Of a stretch of DNA of 19,203 nt, positions 1,996 to 7,239 are shown in pieces. Below the pieces are notes generated by a model. That model saw only the letters and a program-made list of their open reading frames with translations. It was not told the origin of the DNA and did no database searches. Location of the stretch: the NCBI GenBank assembly GCA_946479185.1, contig CAMLFF010000025.1, positions 1 to 19,203 of the forward strand, in the 5' to 3' direction. Positions within the stretch are counted from its first letter, which is position 1; every line of letters starts with the position of its first letter. The DNA is from an uncultured Sphingobium sp. (GTDB lineage Bacteria > Pseudomonadota > Alphaproteobacteria > Sphingomonadales > Sphingomonadaceae). The translations under genes were made by a program, and so were the position numbers.

Positions 1996-3285
1996 TTGCG
2001 CCGCACCATCAGCCAATCCACAAATTACCCCTATCACCTGTCTAAACCTGTTCAAGGCCTCCCCATCACCACCGCCACCACCTTCTCGCCCCTGCGCCAC
2101 CGCACCTTCGCGTTCATCCTGCTGGGCGCGTTGCTGGCGCATTTCGGCAATGCCATTCAGGCGGTCGGCGCGGCTTGGCAATTGACGGCGACGGGGCAGC
2201 GGGCCGATGTCGTTGCGCTCGTGCAAAGCGCGGTCAATCTGCCGATCATGCTGCTCGCCCTGCCTGCGGGCGCGATGGCGGATATGTGGGATCGGCGCAC
2301 GCTCATGCTGGTGGCGCAAGGGGCGATGTTCGCGCTCTCGCTGCTGCTGGCGCTGCTGAGCTTTGCGGGCATCGTACCGCCAGCGCTGGTCATTGGGCTC
2401 ACGGCCTTGCTGGCCTGCGGGGTTGCCTGCTTCAATCCCGCGCTCGCAGGCTCGATCAGCCATATCGTGCCGCGCGCAGAGCTTGGCGCGGCGATCGCGC
2501 TCAACATCCTTGCCTTTAGCGTTGCGCGCACAGTCGGCCCCGCGCTTGGCGGCGCAATTGTTGCGGCGGGGGGCGCCAAGGCGGCGTTCGTAGCCAATGC
2601 GCTGAGCTATCTCGCGGTCATCCTCATCCTGTGGCGCTGGCGTCCCCAAGTCGCCAAGCCAGAGGGTGGGCGGCGGATTTCGGCTGTGATTGCGGAGGGG
2701 TTCCGCTTCGCTGCATCGTCTCCTCCGGTGCGGACTATCATGTTGCGCGCGATCACCTTCACCGCCACTGGCAGCGCGGCCTGGGCACTGATGCCGCTCG
2801 TTTCCAGCGAGATGCTGGGGCAGGGCTCCTTCACCTTTGGGATGCTGCTAGGTGCGCTGGGTCTAGGCTCAGTCGCAGGGGCAGCCAGCAGCACATGGTT
2901 CCGTCAGCGCTATAATGGCGAGATAATCACGCGCGCGGCAGGGCTGATCTATGGCGCAGGATGCCTCGGCGTCTCCTTCTCGCCCCCCTTCTGGGTGATG
3001 CTGCTACTGTTGGCGATTGGCGGCGCGGCATGGGTGCAGGCGCTTTCCGGCTTCTCCGTGGCAGGGCAATTATGGGCGCCGAAGCCTCTGATCGGGCGCG
3101 TTACAGCGATGACGAGCAGCGTCACCTTTGGCGGCATTGCGCTTGGCAGCTGGCTATGGGGTCATTTTGCGGAGAGTCACGGCGTCGCAATGGCGCTGAT
3201 GGCCTCCGGCGCGGGTATGATCGTGCTTCCGCTGGTTGGCCTCATCCTTCCCATGCCGCGCGAGCAACCCACGCCTGAAGCTTAA
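1996..3285 (+). CDS. Major facilitator superfamily exporter (MFS_3 / EntS-like)
   Basis: This is a protein of up to 429 residues with about ten to twelve hydrophobic segments. The opening motif (FSPLRHRTFAFILLGALLAHFGNAIQ region, residues ~31-56) and the loop GAMADMWDRRTLML (the MFS motif A, G-x-x-x-D-x-x-x-R-R) are typical of the MFS_3 transmembrane effector group, which includes the enterobactin exporter EntS. The start is uncertain: an in-frame stop at 1990-1992 makes TTG at 1996 the earliest possibility, with AGGA only a few bases before it; no ATG or GTG lies between it and the first helix. The gene follows the TetR-class repressor closely and is likely the efflux arm of a repressor-controlled module. 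It converges with sufE, the two stop codons sharing the bases TTAA at 3282-3285. Confidence 0.88.
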   Translation: MRRTISQSTNYPYHLSKPVQGLPITTATTFSPLRHRTFAFILLGALLAHFGNAIQAVGAAWQLTATGQRADVVALVQSAVNLPIMLLALPAGAMADMWDRRTLMLVAQGAMFALSLLLALLSFAGIVPPALVIGLTALLACGVACFNPALAGSISHIVPRAELGAAIALNILAFSVARTVGPALGGAIVAAGGAKAAFVANALSYLAVILILWRWRPQVAKPEGGRRISAVIAEGFRFAASSPPVRTIMLRAITFTATGSAAWALMPLVSSEMLGQGSFTFGMLLGALGLGSVAGAASSTWFRQRYNGEIITRAAGLIYGAGCLGVSFSPPFWVMLLLLAIGGAAWVQALSGFSVAGQLWAPKPLIGRVTAMTSSVTFGGIALGSWLWGHFAESHGVAMALMASGAGMIVLPLVGLILPMPREQPTPEA

Positions 3286-3704
3286 GCCAGTCGCTGCGCC
3301 GTCTCGCGGATCAGCGCGATCATGTTTGGCAGGCCCTGCGTGCGGTTGGAGGAGAGTTGCCGCTTGAGATCGAATGGCGCGAGCGCCGCCTCGATGTCCA
3401 GTGCGGCGACGTCCGCCGGCATCTTGTCCTGCACCGTCAGGAGCACCAGCGCGATAATGCCCTTGGTGATCGCAGCATTGCTGTCAGCTAGAAAATGCAG
3501 CGCTCCATCATCCTTGCGCGTGGGGTAGACCCAAACCGATGCCGAGCAGCCACGCACCAGCGTCGCATCGGTCTTGAGCGCATCGGGCATTGGCTCAAGG
3601 GCGCGGCCAAGGTCGATCAGCAGCCGGTAGCGCTCATCGCCTTCCAGCAGCTCATAATCGTCCTGAACATCTTGCAAAGTGGGGAGGCTCGTCATGCGGC
3701 CCAT
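3282..3704 (-). CDS. sufE: SufE-type cysteine desulfuration protein
   Basis: This is a 140-residue protein of the SufE/CsdE family. These proteins accept the persulfide sulfur from a SufS/CsdA cysteine desulfurase and pass it to the iron-sulfur scaffold. The acceptor cysteine is C53 in the segment LVRGCSASVWV, matching the family pattern V-x-G-C-x-S-x-V-W. The later D-x-N-A-A-I-T-K-G and LSSNRTQGLPNM segments are also typical. The first ATG (3704) or the fourth codon ATG (3695) could be the start; neither has an obvious Shine-Dalgarno. It lies 27 bases downstream of the last gene of the psp run, on the same strand and with no terminator seen, so it may be read as the tail of that operon. No other suf genes are in the window. 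Confidence 0.92.
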   Translation of the reverse strand: MGRMTSLPTLQDVQDDYELLEGDERYRLLIDLGRALEPMPDALKTDATLVRGCSASVWVYPTRKDDGALHFLADSNAAITKGIIALVLLTVQDKMPADVAALDIEAALAPFDLKRQLSSNRTQGLPNMIALIRETAQRLA

Positions 3705-3731: not shown

Positions 3732-3995
3732 TCAGATATCGATGCCTGCCGCGATCGCCTCCAGCTTGCGGATGCGCTCCTTGAGGTGCGCCATTTCAAT
3801 CCGCGCAGTCATGGCCGTGCTGTTCAGGCCTGGCTCGCTGGCGGCGGAGGGCGCAGGCCGCTCCAGTCCCAGCCGCTTCAGCGCCAGCCAGCCGTTCCAG
3901 CCCTTTAGAAGCGCGAAAGTGACGGTTGCGGTCACAAAGACCAGCGCGAGCGCAAAAGAGGTTTCGCCCAATATATTGACCATGCTCATCATCAT
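3732..3995 (-). CDS. Small membrane-anchored coiled-coil protein at the end of the psp operon
   Basis: This is an 87-residue protein that I cannot place in a named family. It has one N-terminal transmembrane helix (about residues 8-30), a short basic and Pro/Ala-rich linker, and a C-terminal helix (ARIEMAHLKERIRKLEAIA) with heptad-like hydrophobic spacing. The ending 'L-K-E-R-I-R-K-L-E-A-I' resembles the C-terminal helix of PspB proteins, so a PspB-derived origin is plausible. The ATG at 3995 follows GGGGGA by about six bases; ATGs at 3992, 3989 and 3983 are alternatives. The region just before the start is nearly the same as that before the gene at 4646. It is the sixth psp gene in order, 14 bases after the preceding stop. 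Confidence 0.75.
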   Translation of the reverse strand: MMMSMVNILGETSFALALVFVTATVTFALLKGWNGWLALKRLGLERPAPSAASEPGLNSTAMTARIEMAHLKERIRKLEAIAAGIDI

Positions 3996-4009
3996 GCCCT
4001 TTCCCCCGA

Positions 4010-4294
4010 TCAGTGCCCGATTGCGCGGGGCGCCTCGTCATCTCGCAGTCCCTCAATCTCATCGGCAAGCCCGGCGCCACGGTCAGTCACGATCCGCTCC
4101 AGCACGCGCACGCGCTGCTCCAGCCGCTCGACCTGCGCCGCATATTGCGCAGCCTTTTCCGCCGTCTGCGTGCCCATCACCTCAAGCTCGCGCTCGCGCA
4201 GCTTCACCATCCGCTGCATGTGGCCGCTCCACGTTTTCGCAAGCACGGGAATGCCCACGACGATCAGAAAAAAGCCCAGCATCGTTATAGGCAT
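4010..4294 (-). CDS. PspB-like small membrane protein with shared C-terminal motif
   Basis: This is a 94-residue protein with one N-terminal transmembrane helix (about residues 5-22), then a charged helix predicted to form a coiled coil (AEKAAQYAAQVERLEQRVRV), and the tail LERIVTDRGAGLADEIEGLR. That tail closely matches the end of the neighbouring protein at 4308-4646 (VERIVTD...LNHEIESLR) and part of the PspC tail. A PspB-like topology (short membrane anchor, cytoplasmic coiled coil) is inferred; the family itself is not one I can name. I chose the ATG at 4294, preceded by GAGAGGG at good spacing, over a longer frame that would overlap the upstream gene and begins with an unlikely Arg-rich stretch. 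Confidence 0.8.
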   Translation of the reverse strand: MPITMLGFFLIVVGIPVLAKTWSGHMQRMVKLRERELEVMGTQTAEKAAQYAAQVERLEQRVRVLERIVTDRGAGLADEIEGLRDDEAPRAIGH

Positions 4295-4307
4295 GGTCGA
4301 ATCCCTC

Positions 4308-4646
4308 TCAGTTCGTCGAGCCGCGCAGGCTCTCAATCTCATGATTGAGGCTCAGCGCGCCATCGGTCACGATCCGCTCGACATTGATAAGCCGATCCTT
4401 GACGGCGCCCATCTCTGCGCGCAGCTGCGCGTTTTCCTGGCTCAGCAGCTTGATGCGCTCGACCATTTCCTCATTTTTCTGCGGATAAACGGCTTTGCCC
4501 CAGCTATTCTCAAGCGGATAGCCATTATGCACGCGCAGCCATGTGTTGAACACCCAGCCGGCAATGGCGAAGAAGCCCAGCGCAATGCCGCCACCGATGA
4601 TCCACGGCATATTATCGCTGATGCCCAAAATCGCTAATTCATTCAT
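4308..4646 (-). CDS. PspB-like membrane/coiled-coil protein with shared C-terminal motif
   Basis: This is a 112-residue protein. A hydrophobic segment lies at about residues 13-36, then a short polar region (HNGYPLENSWGKAVYPQ), then a long charged helix with heptads (EEMVERIKLLSQENAQLRAE) and the tail VERIVTDGALSLNHEIESLR. The tail pairs with that of the next gene and recalls the 'VERIIAAD' end of PspB in the same operon. It begins at ATG 4646 with AGGGG about eight bases upstream. It lies 38 bases after pspC and 13 bases before the next gene, all on the minus strand, so it is very likely cotranscribed. Function is not known; location in the operon suggests a part of the membrane-stress sensing complex. 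Confidence 0.82.
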   Translation of the reverse strand: MNELAILGISDNMPWIIGGGIALGFFAIAGWVFNTWLRVHNGYPLENSWGKAVYPQKNEEMVERIKLLSQENAQLRAEMGAVKDRLINVERIVTDGALSLNHEIESLRGSTN

Positions 4647-4684
4647 GTCCTTTTTCCCCTGATCTTGAGACCGTCAGCCGCGCC

Positions 4685-5065
4685 TCAGCGCAGGCTGTCA
4701 ATCTCGTTGGCGAGGCGCGTGTTGCGGCTGGTGTAATAGGTCTCGATGTCGCCAAGCCGCCGATCGATATCGCGGAACTTGCTGCGCACATCGCGGGTGG
4801 AGCGTGCCGGGTTGGTGCGCACACCTTGCCAGAACTTCTCATCGTCCCGGTCGGCATACAGGCCTGATGGCTTGTCATCAGCCATCCATGCGGCGAGGAA
4901 ATAGGCAATCACCGTCCAGGGGAAGGCGCCCATCAGCGTCACCAGTACAGCGCCGATGCGGACCCACAGCACATTGATGCCGCTATAGTCGGCGATGCCG
5001 GAGCACACGCCCATGAACTTGCCATTTTTCTTGTCGAGATAGAATTTGGTGCGGCGGGCGGACAT
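4685..5065 (-). CDS. pspC: Phage shock protein C (PspC)
   Basis: This is a 126-residue inner-membrane protein. Residues about 5-65 form the PspC domain (KFYLDKKNGKFMGVCSGIA, then the amphipathic and transmembrane part ending FPWTVIAYFLAAWM). The C-terminal 50 residues are a charged helix ending RLANEIDSLR, which resembles the tails of the two added genes downstream. PspC acts with PspB in sensing inner-membrane stress and releasing PspA from PspF. The ATG at 5065 follows AGGAGG by eight bases; a longer in-frame extension upstream lacks any support. The start is one base after the pspB stop (TAAGATG), suggesting translational coupling. Confidence 0.93.
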   Translation of the reverse strand: MSARRTKFYLDKKNGKFMGVCSGIADYSGINVLWVRIGAVLVTLMGAFPWTVIAYFLAAWMADDKPSGLYADRDDEKFWQGVRTNPARSTRDVRSKFRDIDRRLGDIETYYTSRNTRLANEIDSLR

Positions 5066-5066
5066 C

Positions 5067-5333
5067 TTAGTTCCTCCTGTCGAAGTTATAGTCGTCGCTC
5101 TCAACCGAGCGATGCGGGCGGAAATCGGGATTGTCGGCAGCGATGATGCGCTCGACAGTCTGGAGGCGTTCCTCAAGGCGGCGGGCGAGCACATGCATCT
5201 CATCGAGCAGGCGCTCATCCTCATCCGTGATCTTGGGCGATTGCTTCCACTTGGTCACATAATGGAAGAGCAGCCAGGGCATGCCGATGAACAACATGCC
5301 GCAGATGACGACGGGCAGGAAAACATCTTCCAT
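5067..5333 (-). CDS. pspB: Phage shock protein B (PspB)
   Basis: This is an 88-residue protein with the PspB layout: an N-terminal membrane helix (about residues 4-24, PVVICGMLFIGMPWLLFHYV), a short basic turn, then a cytoplasmic coiled coil (DEDERLLDEMHVLARRLEER) ending VERIIAADNPDFRP. The ending matches the 'ALESILDAEHPNWR' of enterobacterial PspB. It is slightly longer than the roughly 74 residues of the E. coli protein because of a polar C-terminal extension. It begins five bases after the pspA stop; the ribosome-binding sequence AAGGA lies in the last codons of pspA. Confidence 0.92.
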   Translation of the reverse strand: MEDVFLPVVICGMLFIGMPWLLFHYVTKWKQSPKITDEDERLLDEMHVLARRLEERLQTVERIIAADNPDFRPHRSVESDDYNFDRRN

Positions 5334-5338
5334 GATGG

Positions 5339-6007
5339 TTAGTCCTTCCTGCCCTGGGCGGCCTTGAGCGCGGCAAGCTCGGCTTCGACCGCGTCATTGG
5401 ATTGCAGCTCAGCAATTTCCTGCTCCAGCGTCTTGGGCTGTCCACCAAGACCCGCCGCATCGGCCTGACCTTCCGCCATGTCCACGCGGCGCTCGAGCAG
5501 CTCGAAGCGGGAGAAGGCGTCCTGCACCCGCTCGCCATTATACATTTCGCGCGCCCGCAGGCGGGATTGCGCACTTTCCATCCGCGTGACGAGACTGTTC
5601 TGGCGGGCACGGGCCTCACGCAGCTTGCCTTGCAGCTTGGCGATATCCTCTTCGGAGGCTGCCAGCGCTTCATCGAGCACCAATATCTGCGACTTGAGCT
5701 GATCGGCCATCTCGACCGCCTTCTGCCGCTCCACCAGAGCCGCCTTGGCCAGGTCTTCACGATCCTTGGAAAGGGCGAGCTCGGCCTTTTCCTTCCAGCT
5801 CTCCTGCAACGCATCGAGCTTGGTGATGTGGCGGCGCATTTCCTTCTGGTCCGCAATCGTGCGGGCAGCAGAGGCGCGCACTTCGACCAGCGTCTCCTCC
5901 ATTTCGAGAATGATCATGCGGATCATCTTGGCCGGATCTTCTGCCCGGTCGAGCAGATCGGTAACGTTGGCGGCAATGATATCCCGGGTGCGTGAGAAAA
6001 TACCCAT
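5339..6007 (-). CDS. pspA: Phage shock protein A (PspA)
   Basis: This is a 222-residue protein of the PspA/IM30 (ESCRT-III-like) family. It begins MGIFSRTRDIIAANVTDLLD and continues DPAKMIRMIILEMEETLVEVR, both family signatures, followed by a long coiled coil through to about residue 180. PspA binds damaged inner membrane as oligomers and, when idle, holds the activator PspF inactive. It is the first gene of the minus-strand run, with GGAG eight bases before the ATG. Upstream lie a leader hairpin, a sigma-54 type promoter and a long inverted repeat, and pspF is divergent, which is the classical arrangement for PspF control. Confidence 0.96.
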   Translation of the reverse strand: MGIFSRTRDIIAANVTDLLDRAEDPAKMIRMIILEMEETLVEVRASAARTIADQKEMRRHITKLDALQESWKEKAELALSKDREDLAKAALVERQKAVEMADQLKSQILVLDEALAASEEDIAKLQGKLREARARQNSLVTRMESAQSRLRAREMYNGERVQDAFSRFELLERRVDMAEGQADAAGLGGQPKTLEQEIAELQSNDAVEAELAALKAAQGRKD

Positions 6008-6087: not shown

Positions 6088-6103
6088 AGCATAAGCCGTG
6101 CCA
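6088..6103 (-). promoter_or_regulatory. Sigma-54 (-24/-12) promoter of the psp operon
   Basis: Read on the minus strand, TGGCACGGCTTATGCT matches the sigma-54 consensus TGGCACG-N4-TTGCW at all but one position. The invariant GG and GC are exactly spaced (GG at 6101-6102, GC at 6089-6090). The expected start of transcription is about 12 bases further on, near 6077, giving a leader of about 70 bases before pspA. A divergent pspF gene makes this assignment strong. Confidence 0.85.
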
Positions 6104-6133
6104 ATTCACGAAAGGCGCAGAAAAGCGCGAATT

Positions 6134-6201: not shown

Positions 6202-7239
<1,038 letters not shown>

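Follow-up and report, generated by a model that had tools for sequence, protein, structure and literature searches.

The phage shock protein (Psp) operon on contig CAMLFF010000025.1 of an uncultured Sphingobium sp. (GenBank assembly GCA_946479185.1) raises a question: what are the three genes for small membrane proteins that follow pspA, pspB and pspC? We call these genes U1, U2 and U3, and we call the whole stretch of DNA that was analysed (19,203 nucleotides, nt) the window. To our knowledge, how PspB and PspC convert membrane damage into the release of PspF is still open, and two-part Psp systems offer few handles on the sensing mechanism. The answer that we favor, with a probability of about 0.58, is that a small gene family of single-pass inner-membrane proteins has multiplied behind pspC in a psp operon of the PspF type, and that these proteins would act, through a C-terminal tail, as extra subunits of the PspBC/PspA switch. 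The locus is a real, conserved and under-described variant of the Psp operon; it may encode a larger, mixed sensor than the textbook two-part one.

The operon reads on the minus strand in the order pspA-pspB-pspC-U1-U2-U3-sufE, with pspF divergent on the plus strand. Every gene from pspA to sufE begins with ATG, and the successive gaps measure 5, 1, 38 (pspC-U1), 13 (U1-U2), 14 (U2-U3) and 27 nt. Four of the products score over NCBIfam cut-offs: PspA (5339..6007; TIGR02977, E 1.9e-83), PspB (5067..5333; TIGR02976, E 3.2e-22, with PF06667 at 4.7e-26), PspC (4685..5065, in a reading frame open as far as 5224; TIGR02978, E 1.5e-38, with PF04024 at 1.2e-15) and PspF. None of the U proteins does so in Pfam or NCBIfam. 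A sequence-only reading of this DNA had placed the three extra genes after pspABC, and both genes and coordinates proved right: U1 at 4308..4646 (112 residues), U2 at 4010..4294 (94 residues) and U3 at 3732..3995 (87 residues). The end motifs that it quoted are present, but several of them are not protein ends: PspB extends 16 residues past DNPDFR, U1 ends in IESLRGSTN and U3 in LEAIAAGIDI.

U1, U2 and U3 are real genes under purifying selection. When the operon was compared with those of two relatives, loci L001 and L006, the ratio of nonsynonymous to synonymous substitution (dN/dS) was ~0.07-0.08 for PspA, 0.15-0.19 for U1 (dN 0.17 and 0.16, dS 0.92 and 1.06), 0.35-0.38 for U2 and 0.34-0.56 for U3. 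Each of the three products has a single hydrophobic segment by hydropathy, which predicts an N-terminal membrane helix followed by a coiled coil. Lys and Arg residues number one (U1), four (U2) and three (U3) after this segment and zero before it in each protein; by the positive-inside rule, under which the side with more Lys/Arg is cytoplasmic, the coiled coils should lie in the cytoplasm. The AlphaFold2 model of U1 (mean predicted local distance difference test score, pLDDT, 76; predicted template modeling score, pTM, 0.32) comprises a membrane helix (residues 13-40) and a long helix (59-110). Such a shape is as expected of a coiled-coil partner, and it carries no indication of the partner's identity. 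The corresponding model of PspC was poor (mean pLDDT 61) and unusable.

Are the U proteins related to one another? Operons of relatives contain two further subfamilies, U0 and UX, both missing in the window. Profile-profile alignment (hhalign) of all six pairs among U0, U1, U2 and UX gave probabilities of 98.4-99.9% over 80-91 columns with scores of 78-183; heptad-shuffled profiles scored at most 23.0 and reversed ones at most 24.3. On these profiles, the four are one family, and U1 and U2 are true paralogues. In all four, a hydrophobic helix at the N-terminus is followed by a coiled-coil helix, the end of which is related to the PspC tail. In a quick tree of the five U subfamilies, four form pure or near-pure clades with a few stray rows (support 0.75-0.85). 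U0 and U1 have in common a GY[PAS] motif after the membrane helix, which was not seen in the PspB sequences inspected. Gene conversion among the tails was considered and rejected: identity within genomes exceeded that between genomes only for U0-U2 (p 0.001), and the other nine of ten pairs were not significant at 0.05.

The relationship to the PspC tail emerged from both profiles and hidden Markov models (HMMs). The tail segments, whose coordinates were counted by hand from translations, all lie on the minus strand. That of PspC (RRLGDIETYYTSRNTRLANEIDSLR, 4688..4762) falls within the TIGR02978 match (residues 6-125). U1 residues 58-107, which include the tail DRLINVERIVTDGALSLNHEIESLR (4323..4397), align with TIGR02978 positions 72-121 (E 0.0082, below cut-off), and the tail of U2 (EQRVRVLERIVTDRGAGLADEIEGLR, 4043..4120) was located by family and profile comparisons. 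What PspC has in common with the U proteins is, in the E. coli protein, a segment formed by the last 23 residues. Eight comparisons of these four U profiles with PspC-tail profiles gave 69-95%, the best within the clade being 91-95% for each of U0, U1, U2 and UX; the PspC-tail profile of the expanded operons matched the U1 profile at 95%. Against a phylum-wide sample of 25 PspC tails (E. coli and 24 loci, with six loci from genomes in our order or class sets left out), the same four U families scored 88-92%.

A decoy test gave a consistent picture. HMMs were trained only on operons without extra genes (68 PspC and 68 PspB sequences) and then tested against 299 U proteins and 2018 decoys. At E<1e-3, the full-length PspC HMM recovered U1 in 40/58 cases, U2 in 20/63, U0 in 7/55, UX in 30/63 and U3 in 0/60, and it matched none of the reversed (0/299), heptad-shuffled (0/1495), PspA (0/150) or SufE (0/74) decoys; at E<0.1, it matched 10/150 PspA sequences. 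With the tail-only PspC HMM, the signal was weaker and the noise greater (U1 25/58, U2 8/63, U0 4/55, UX 23/63, U3 0/60 and PspA 1/150 at E<1e-3; 35/299 reversed decoys and 17/150 PspA at E<0.1). Individually, the window's U1 and U2 miss the 1e-3 threshold, with best values of 0.0055 and 0.0018. In a scan of 33 U members at E<=0.01, TIGR02978 was matched by 20 (best 8.3e-5) and TIGR02976 by nine (best 4.6e-8). We also counted distinct sequences (for PspA, all sequences) that conform to a strict expression for the tail. In expanded operons it was found in U0 (22/27), U1 (30/31), U2 (41/48), UX (26/35) and PspC (14/34), and in neither U3 (0/31) nor PspB (0/34); elsewhere, it occurred in 4/69 PspC and 0/150 PspA sequences. 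PF04024, the two-helix membrane domain of PspC, had no match in U1-U3 or in the 33 U members scanned, and among solved structures PspC had no sequence match.

The coiled coil also resembles that of PspB, which in the window occupies LEERLQTVERIIAADNPDFR (5118..5177, minus strand, counted by hand from the translation). The best comparison, U2 against PspB, reached 96% over 67 columns, membrane helix included; the other seven, spanning four U families and two PspB sets, gave 49-93%. The PspB HMM at E<1e-3 recovered U2 (25/63), UX (11/63) and U0 (3/55), none of U1 (0/58) or U3 (0/60), and no decoy (0/2018). U2 of the window matches TIGR02976 (E 0.0011; 19.2 bits, cut-off 51.7), TIGR02978 (E 8e-4) and Pfam PspB (13.1 bits, cut-off 25.6), each below its cut-off, and the NCBIfam scan listed no TIGR02976 match for U1 or U3. 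Elsewhere, the U2 gene of L026 (3.9e-7) and a locus in G016 (2.4e-7) match the PspB model below its cut-off, and a second PspB in L196 matches it at 7.3e-10. From these comparisons, we conclude that the C-terminal helix of U0, U1, U2 and UX, taken as families, is related to the PspC tail and that their coiled coil is also related to PspB.

The sequence-only reading had gone further, proposing that a PspB-like unit was duplicated to give all three extra genes and that matching tails occur on all five proteins. The duplication holds for U1 and U2 (98-99.9% among profiles, up to 96% with PspB) but not for U3, which matches neither PspB nor PspC. Likewise, profile similarity among the tails, and with it a tail in common with PspC, was found for U1 and U2 as families (up to 95%, in HMMs and profiles alike) but not for U3 (0/60). 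A match across all five fails: PspB and the PspC tail, compared directly, gave only 0.5-29% in four profile pairs, leaving direct homology between them unsupported. The U family thus looks like a link between PspB and the PspC tail, without proving that these two match each other.

Where does this leave U3? As a further copy of the tail it was rejected, being unsupported against both PspB and PspC (decoy test 0/60; profiles <=15%). Its profile links run instead to UX (91%, or 88.7% with query and template swapped), U2 (78%), U0 (29%) and U1 (7%); the links to UX and U2 are weak, and membership in the U family is unproven. The first half of U3 is variable, and its last 24 residues (ARIEMAHLKERIRKLEAIAAGIDI, 3735..3806, minus strand) are strongly conserved in the 10 sequences compared. 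Homologues number 1703 at E<=0.001. Of the 33 expanded order-set operons, 30 contain U3, and in each of these it closes the run of U genes. Three second mini-loci (L134, L135 and L136) consist of PspA, PspC and U3 alone, with U3 paired directly with PspC.

How widespread is the expanded operon? A search seeded with U1, in contigs from one genome per species, gave 28 loci, 27 of them with pspABC and further U genes; most of the 27 are titled Sphingobium, Sphingomonas or Novosphingobium, a few only metagenome-assembled bacteria, and the remaining locus (L028) is an apparent chance match. Because it was seeded, that set is biased. A second survey, without a seed, covered 118 genomes of the order, 105 with PspA, and yielded 105 loci from 102 genomes, three of which have a second locus; G111 and G085 were excluded (contig end <1.6 kb behind pspA), and G001 is represented by L001. 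Loci were annotated by selecting non-overlapping open reading frames, a procedure that replaced an earlier version spoiled by shadow frames. By scripted count, 33 of the 105 loci are expanded and carry three (1 locus), four (6), five (14), six (10) or seven (2) U genes; U0 is present in 27 of them, U1 in 30, U2 in 32, UX in 31 and U3 in 30. Another 51 loci have pspABC, some of them with sufE, and no U gene, and in 11 a second PspC occurs with a single U-like gene. That leaves ten: the three PspA-PspC-U3 loci, L106 (PspA, a short PspC and two U genes, with no PspB found), four with a second PspC/PspB and no U gene, and two cut by a contig end.

We built a PspA tree of 128 rows, after dropping one short row and with six of the 27 seeded relatives included. 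In it, a single clade (support 100/99) takes in every operon with at least three U genes. The sequence-only reading was to be refuted if the three genes were absent from psp operons of related genomes; this test does not refute it, the arrangement being conserved, with at least three U genes per operon, in 40/40 main operons of the clade (33 surveyed, six seeded relatives and the window itself). The clade's three other rows are the second loci PspA-PspC-U3. L106 and L167 branch adjacent to it, L167 having no U gene in the available 3.2 kb, and in 10 rows of another clade, which numbers 22, a second PspC is followed by a single U-like gene. L001 and L006 form a group with the window (100/98); because these two also have U0 and UX, the window has probably lost both. 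Across the class, PspB was matched in 22/190 genomes, 20 of them over cut-off. Seventeen loci were examined (three genomes of the order set and two marginal matches were left out), and 16 are plain pspABC. The exception is L196, which lies outside the order set: at 2428-2914 it encodes, besides a second PspB, a single-pass protein whose membrane helix is similar and whose tail is of the PspC type, that is, two tail types on one kind of body.

Relatives of the family also occur away from psp. At 1e-5, U profiles matched at least once in 91/118 order genomes, including genomes without an expanded operon. We examined 25 places: 18, among the matches listed, from order genomes without an expanded operon and seven elsewhere in the phylum. 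Typically, one small protein has a hydrophobic start and the same tail, L242 having two in tandem; in two of the places (L250 and L251), the contig begins just upstream in genomes without a PspA match, such that a psp neighborhood is possible there. Neighbors vary by group (nine were tested): one group has a recurrent divergent gene of ~500 residues, which in the single case tested encodes an M18 aminopeptidase, and others adjoin rpoD or an AstE/AspA-like protein. No consistent site for sigma-54 control was found at these genes. The single-gene relatives (L248-L265 and L241-L247) include those of Brumicola/Glaciecola-type bacteria. Database relatives of U1 number 7149 and are mostly called hypothetical where they are named at all; databases call a few relatives "Phage shock protein B". 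A history compatible with these sequences is that a single gene was captured behind pspC and then copied.

Divergent pspF (6202..7239, plus strand; TIGR02974, E 3e-137, over cut-off) encodes a sigma-54 enhancer-binding activator, and a divergent PspF match is found in the window and in the 27 relatives L001-L027 (that in L011 is cut by a contig end). A sigma-54-type promoter-like site (6089..6104, minus strand), 97 nt before pspA, agrees with 12 of 13 positions of the consensus; it is one of only two sites scoring at least 12/13 on both strands of the window. Downstream, sufE (3282..3704, minus strand; PF02657, E 8.2e-34) follows on the same strand within 4.3 kb in 30/33 expanded order-set operons and in 27/51 of those without extra genes, there 136 to 2829 nt after pspC. 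A role for sufE in the Psp response is unlikely.

Taken with the known biology of PspC, these data suggest how the U proteins might work. According to one E. coli study, binding to PspA depends on the C-terminal region in fragments of PspC and on the leucine zipper (residues 77-98) in PspC itself, and PspB is bound via the membrane region (PMC3068692). For Yersinia PspC, a C-terminal domain described as cytoplasmic is reported to bind PspA in the on state, freeing PspF (PMC5596341). The U proteins would be made together with PspA and would join PspB and PspC in the inner membrane, where their tail would enter the same PspA partner-exchange switch as that of PspC. The extra subunits could add binding sites or inputs to the switch or, alternatively, widen the docking platform for PspA. 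U3 would stand apart as a further conserved component and would probably dock, through its C-terminus, to one of the other Psp proteins. That the U genes are co-directional and closely spaced, are under purifying selection and are present clade-wide supports this reading. The putative hetero-oligomeric sensor proposed in the sequence-only reading is plausible.

Correlated evolution fits the partner-exchange reading weakly. Beyond what PspA, SufE and PspB distances account for, 9/10 tail pairs among PspC, U0, U1, U2 and UX co-vary (p<=0.024), as do 0/5 pairs of the U3 tail with the other tails. An earlier half-by-half test had given 6/6 U-U pairs of C-terminal halves (p<=0.014), 1/6 of N-terminal halves and 0/5 for SufE against the five U C-terminal halves (at 0.05). 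Co-evolution confined to the tail was rejected, since p 0.002 was likewise obtained for the control SufE, with PspB in the C-terminal halves and with U3 in the N-terminal halves, and since the bodies co-vary when better controls are applied.

One further comparison concerned PspC and its own partner. The PspC tail aligned with PspA of the same sampling at 47%, 49% and 51% in the same register, and in cross comparisons at 64%, 25% (in another register) and 14%; in each comparison, 20 tail shuffles scored below the true value (highest shuffle 23.6; true 22.7-30.1). The PspA region concerned, residues ~158-201 (window ~5405-5536), is near the last helices and reads RFDxLERRVDxxEG..TLEEEIAEL. The U families matched PspA at 0.3-8%. 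Mimicry of PspA by the PspC tail is possible, and we keep it only as an idea. It enters an extended form of our reading, which we regard as tentative and doubtful in its full extent: in sphingomonads, mixed coiled-coil bundles might form from PspB, PspC and between three and seven different single-pass paralogues, the majority of which would carry a PspA-binding tail of the PspC type; different membrane insults would be read by different membrane segments and would converge on one PspA/PspF switch, with the PspC tail perhaps imitating the last-helices region of PspA and thereby pulling PspA off PspF.

Several observations weigh against U proteins as subunits of the switch. The window's own U1 and U2 score under every curated cut-off. 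For U1 and the PspC tail from within the clade, reversing the profile still left a score of 27.0, against 43.1 for the true one; part of that score is thus coiled-coil composition. Non-tail parts co-vary too (8/10 pairs at p<0.05), which does not single out the tail. The window is without U0 and UX, and so the full U set is not required. Relatives of the family stand as single genes far from psp in many genomes, making the family not psp-specific. The same simple scan found no comparable sigma-54 site in several relatives, L001 among them. Finally, the E. coli study makes the PspC C-terminal region putatively periplasmic in one of two topologies (PMC3068692), which would complicate the model.

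Of the other explanations, the one that fares best makes the U proteins effectors rather than sensor parts: after induction they would, as proposed for PspD and PspG of E. coli, act on the membrane or hold PspA oligomers there, without control of PspF. The U genes do lie downstream of pspC, like pspD in E. coli, and a PspC-type tail could act as a PspA dock. We consider this explanation unlikely; the U tail is related to the regulatory tail of PspC, and the Pfam scan reported no relation of U proteins to PspD or PspG. That the genes are plain copies of pspB, raising its dosage with no new function, would suit the alignment of U2 with PspB over 67 columns and the few database names. This is improbable given five subfamilies kept side by side, four of them as pure or near-pure clades, and the GY[PAS] motif of U0 and U1. 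Last, unrelated small membrane proteins made Psp-like by coiled-coil convergence, a picture that fits U3 best and draws on weak matches to what appear to be generic coiled coils (the only matches of the U family among solved structures, best E 0.015), on the varied neighbors of single-gene relatives and on the reversed decoys of the tail-only model, are very improbable in view of the far lower heptad-preserving and reversed decoys of the full-length PspC and PspB models, the likewise far lower shuffled hhalign profiles and the clade-wide linkage to psp.

A clade of this kind would supply a first context for thousands of mostly hypothetical proteins (7149 relatives of U1 and 1703 of U3). Here the tail of the sensor is joined to membrane segments of several kinds, and close relatives differ by gain and loss (L001 and L006 have U0 and UX, the window has neither), which would amount to a natural mutation series for the PspA-binding tail.

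The expansion has been glimpsed before, and the description of it as new in the sequence-only reading was too strong: a 2024 paper already names PspB duplicates in the operon, together with PspC fused to a divergent PspB (PMC11237479; example accessions AOL22920.1 and ANW39986.1). It covers this variation in one sentence, and its available text does not give the number of genes, subfamilies, clade or mechanism. In a 2022 study, the proteins that usually accompany PspA in proteobacteria are given as PspB, PspC and PspD, and words starting with "alphaproteobacteria" or "sphingo" are absent from that main text (PMC9239133). In the library that we searched, no literature was found on PspB/PspC in Sphingomonas or on PspA/PspB/PspC in Novosphingobium; one Novosphingobium paper there uses the term "phage shock" a single time. 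Zymomonas belongs to the same order. The available sections of two papers report that its pspA, pspB and pspC are up under ethanol and that pspA-pspD are up in xylose medium, with no mention of extra genes after pspC (PMC3495753, PMC8645129). In the portions of the literature examined, then, the phenomenon has been noted in one line, and the clade-wide expansion into five subfamilies, the PspC-type tail and the single-gene relatives were not found.

How does the U family compare with known Psp components? PspD and PspG of E. coli are extra small membrane members of the PspF regulon, and in this respect the U proteins resemble them; the difference lies in sequence, where Pfam reports no similarity. 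With the PspC tail (TIGR02978 ~72-121) the family has in common a helix with ERxxTS/D followed by a short end, E[IF]xxL, and it differs from PspC in that the two-helix domain PF04024 was not found in U1-U3 or the 33 members. PspB (PF06667, TIGR02976) is alike in having one N-terminal membrane helix, then a coiled coil with an [LV]ER[IL] motif, in the same operon; the U proteins of the window differ in scoring under its cut-offs beside a normal pspB, and U1 and U2 carry a further PspC-type segment after the coiled coil. Closest in kind are the PspB duplicates and the PspC-PspB fusion of PMC11237479, which represent the same kind of variation as that described here.

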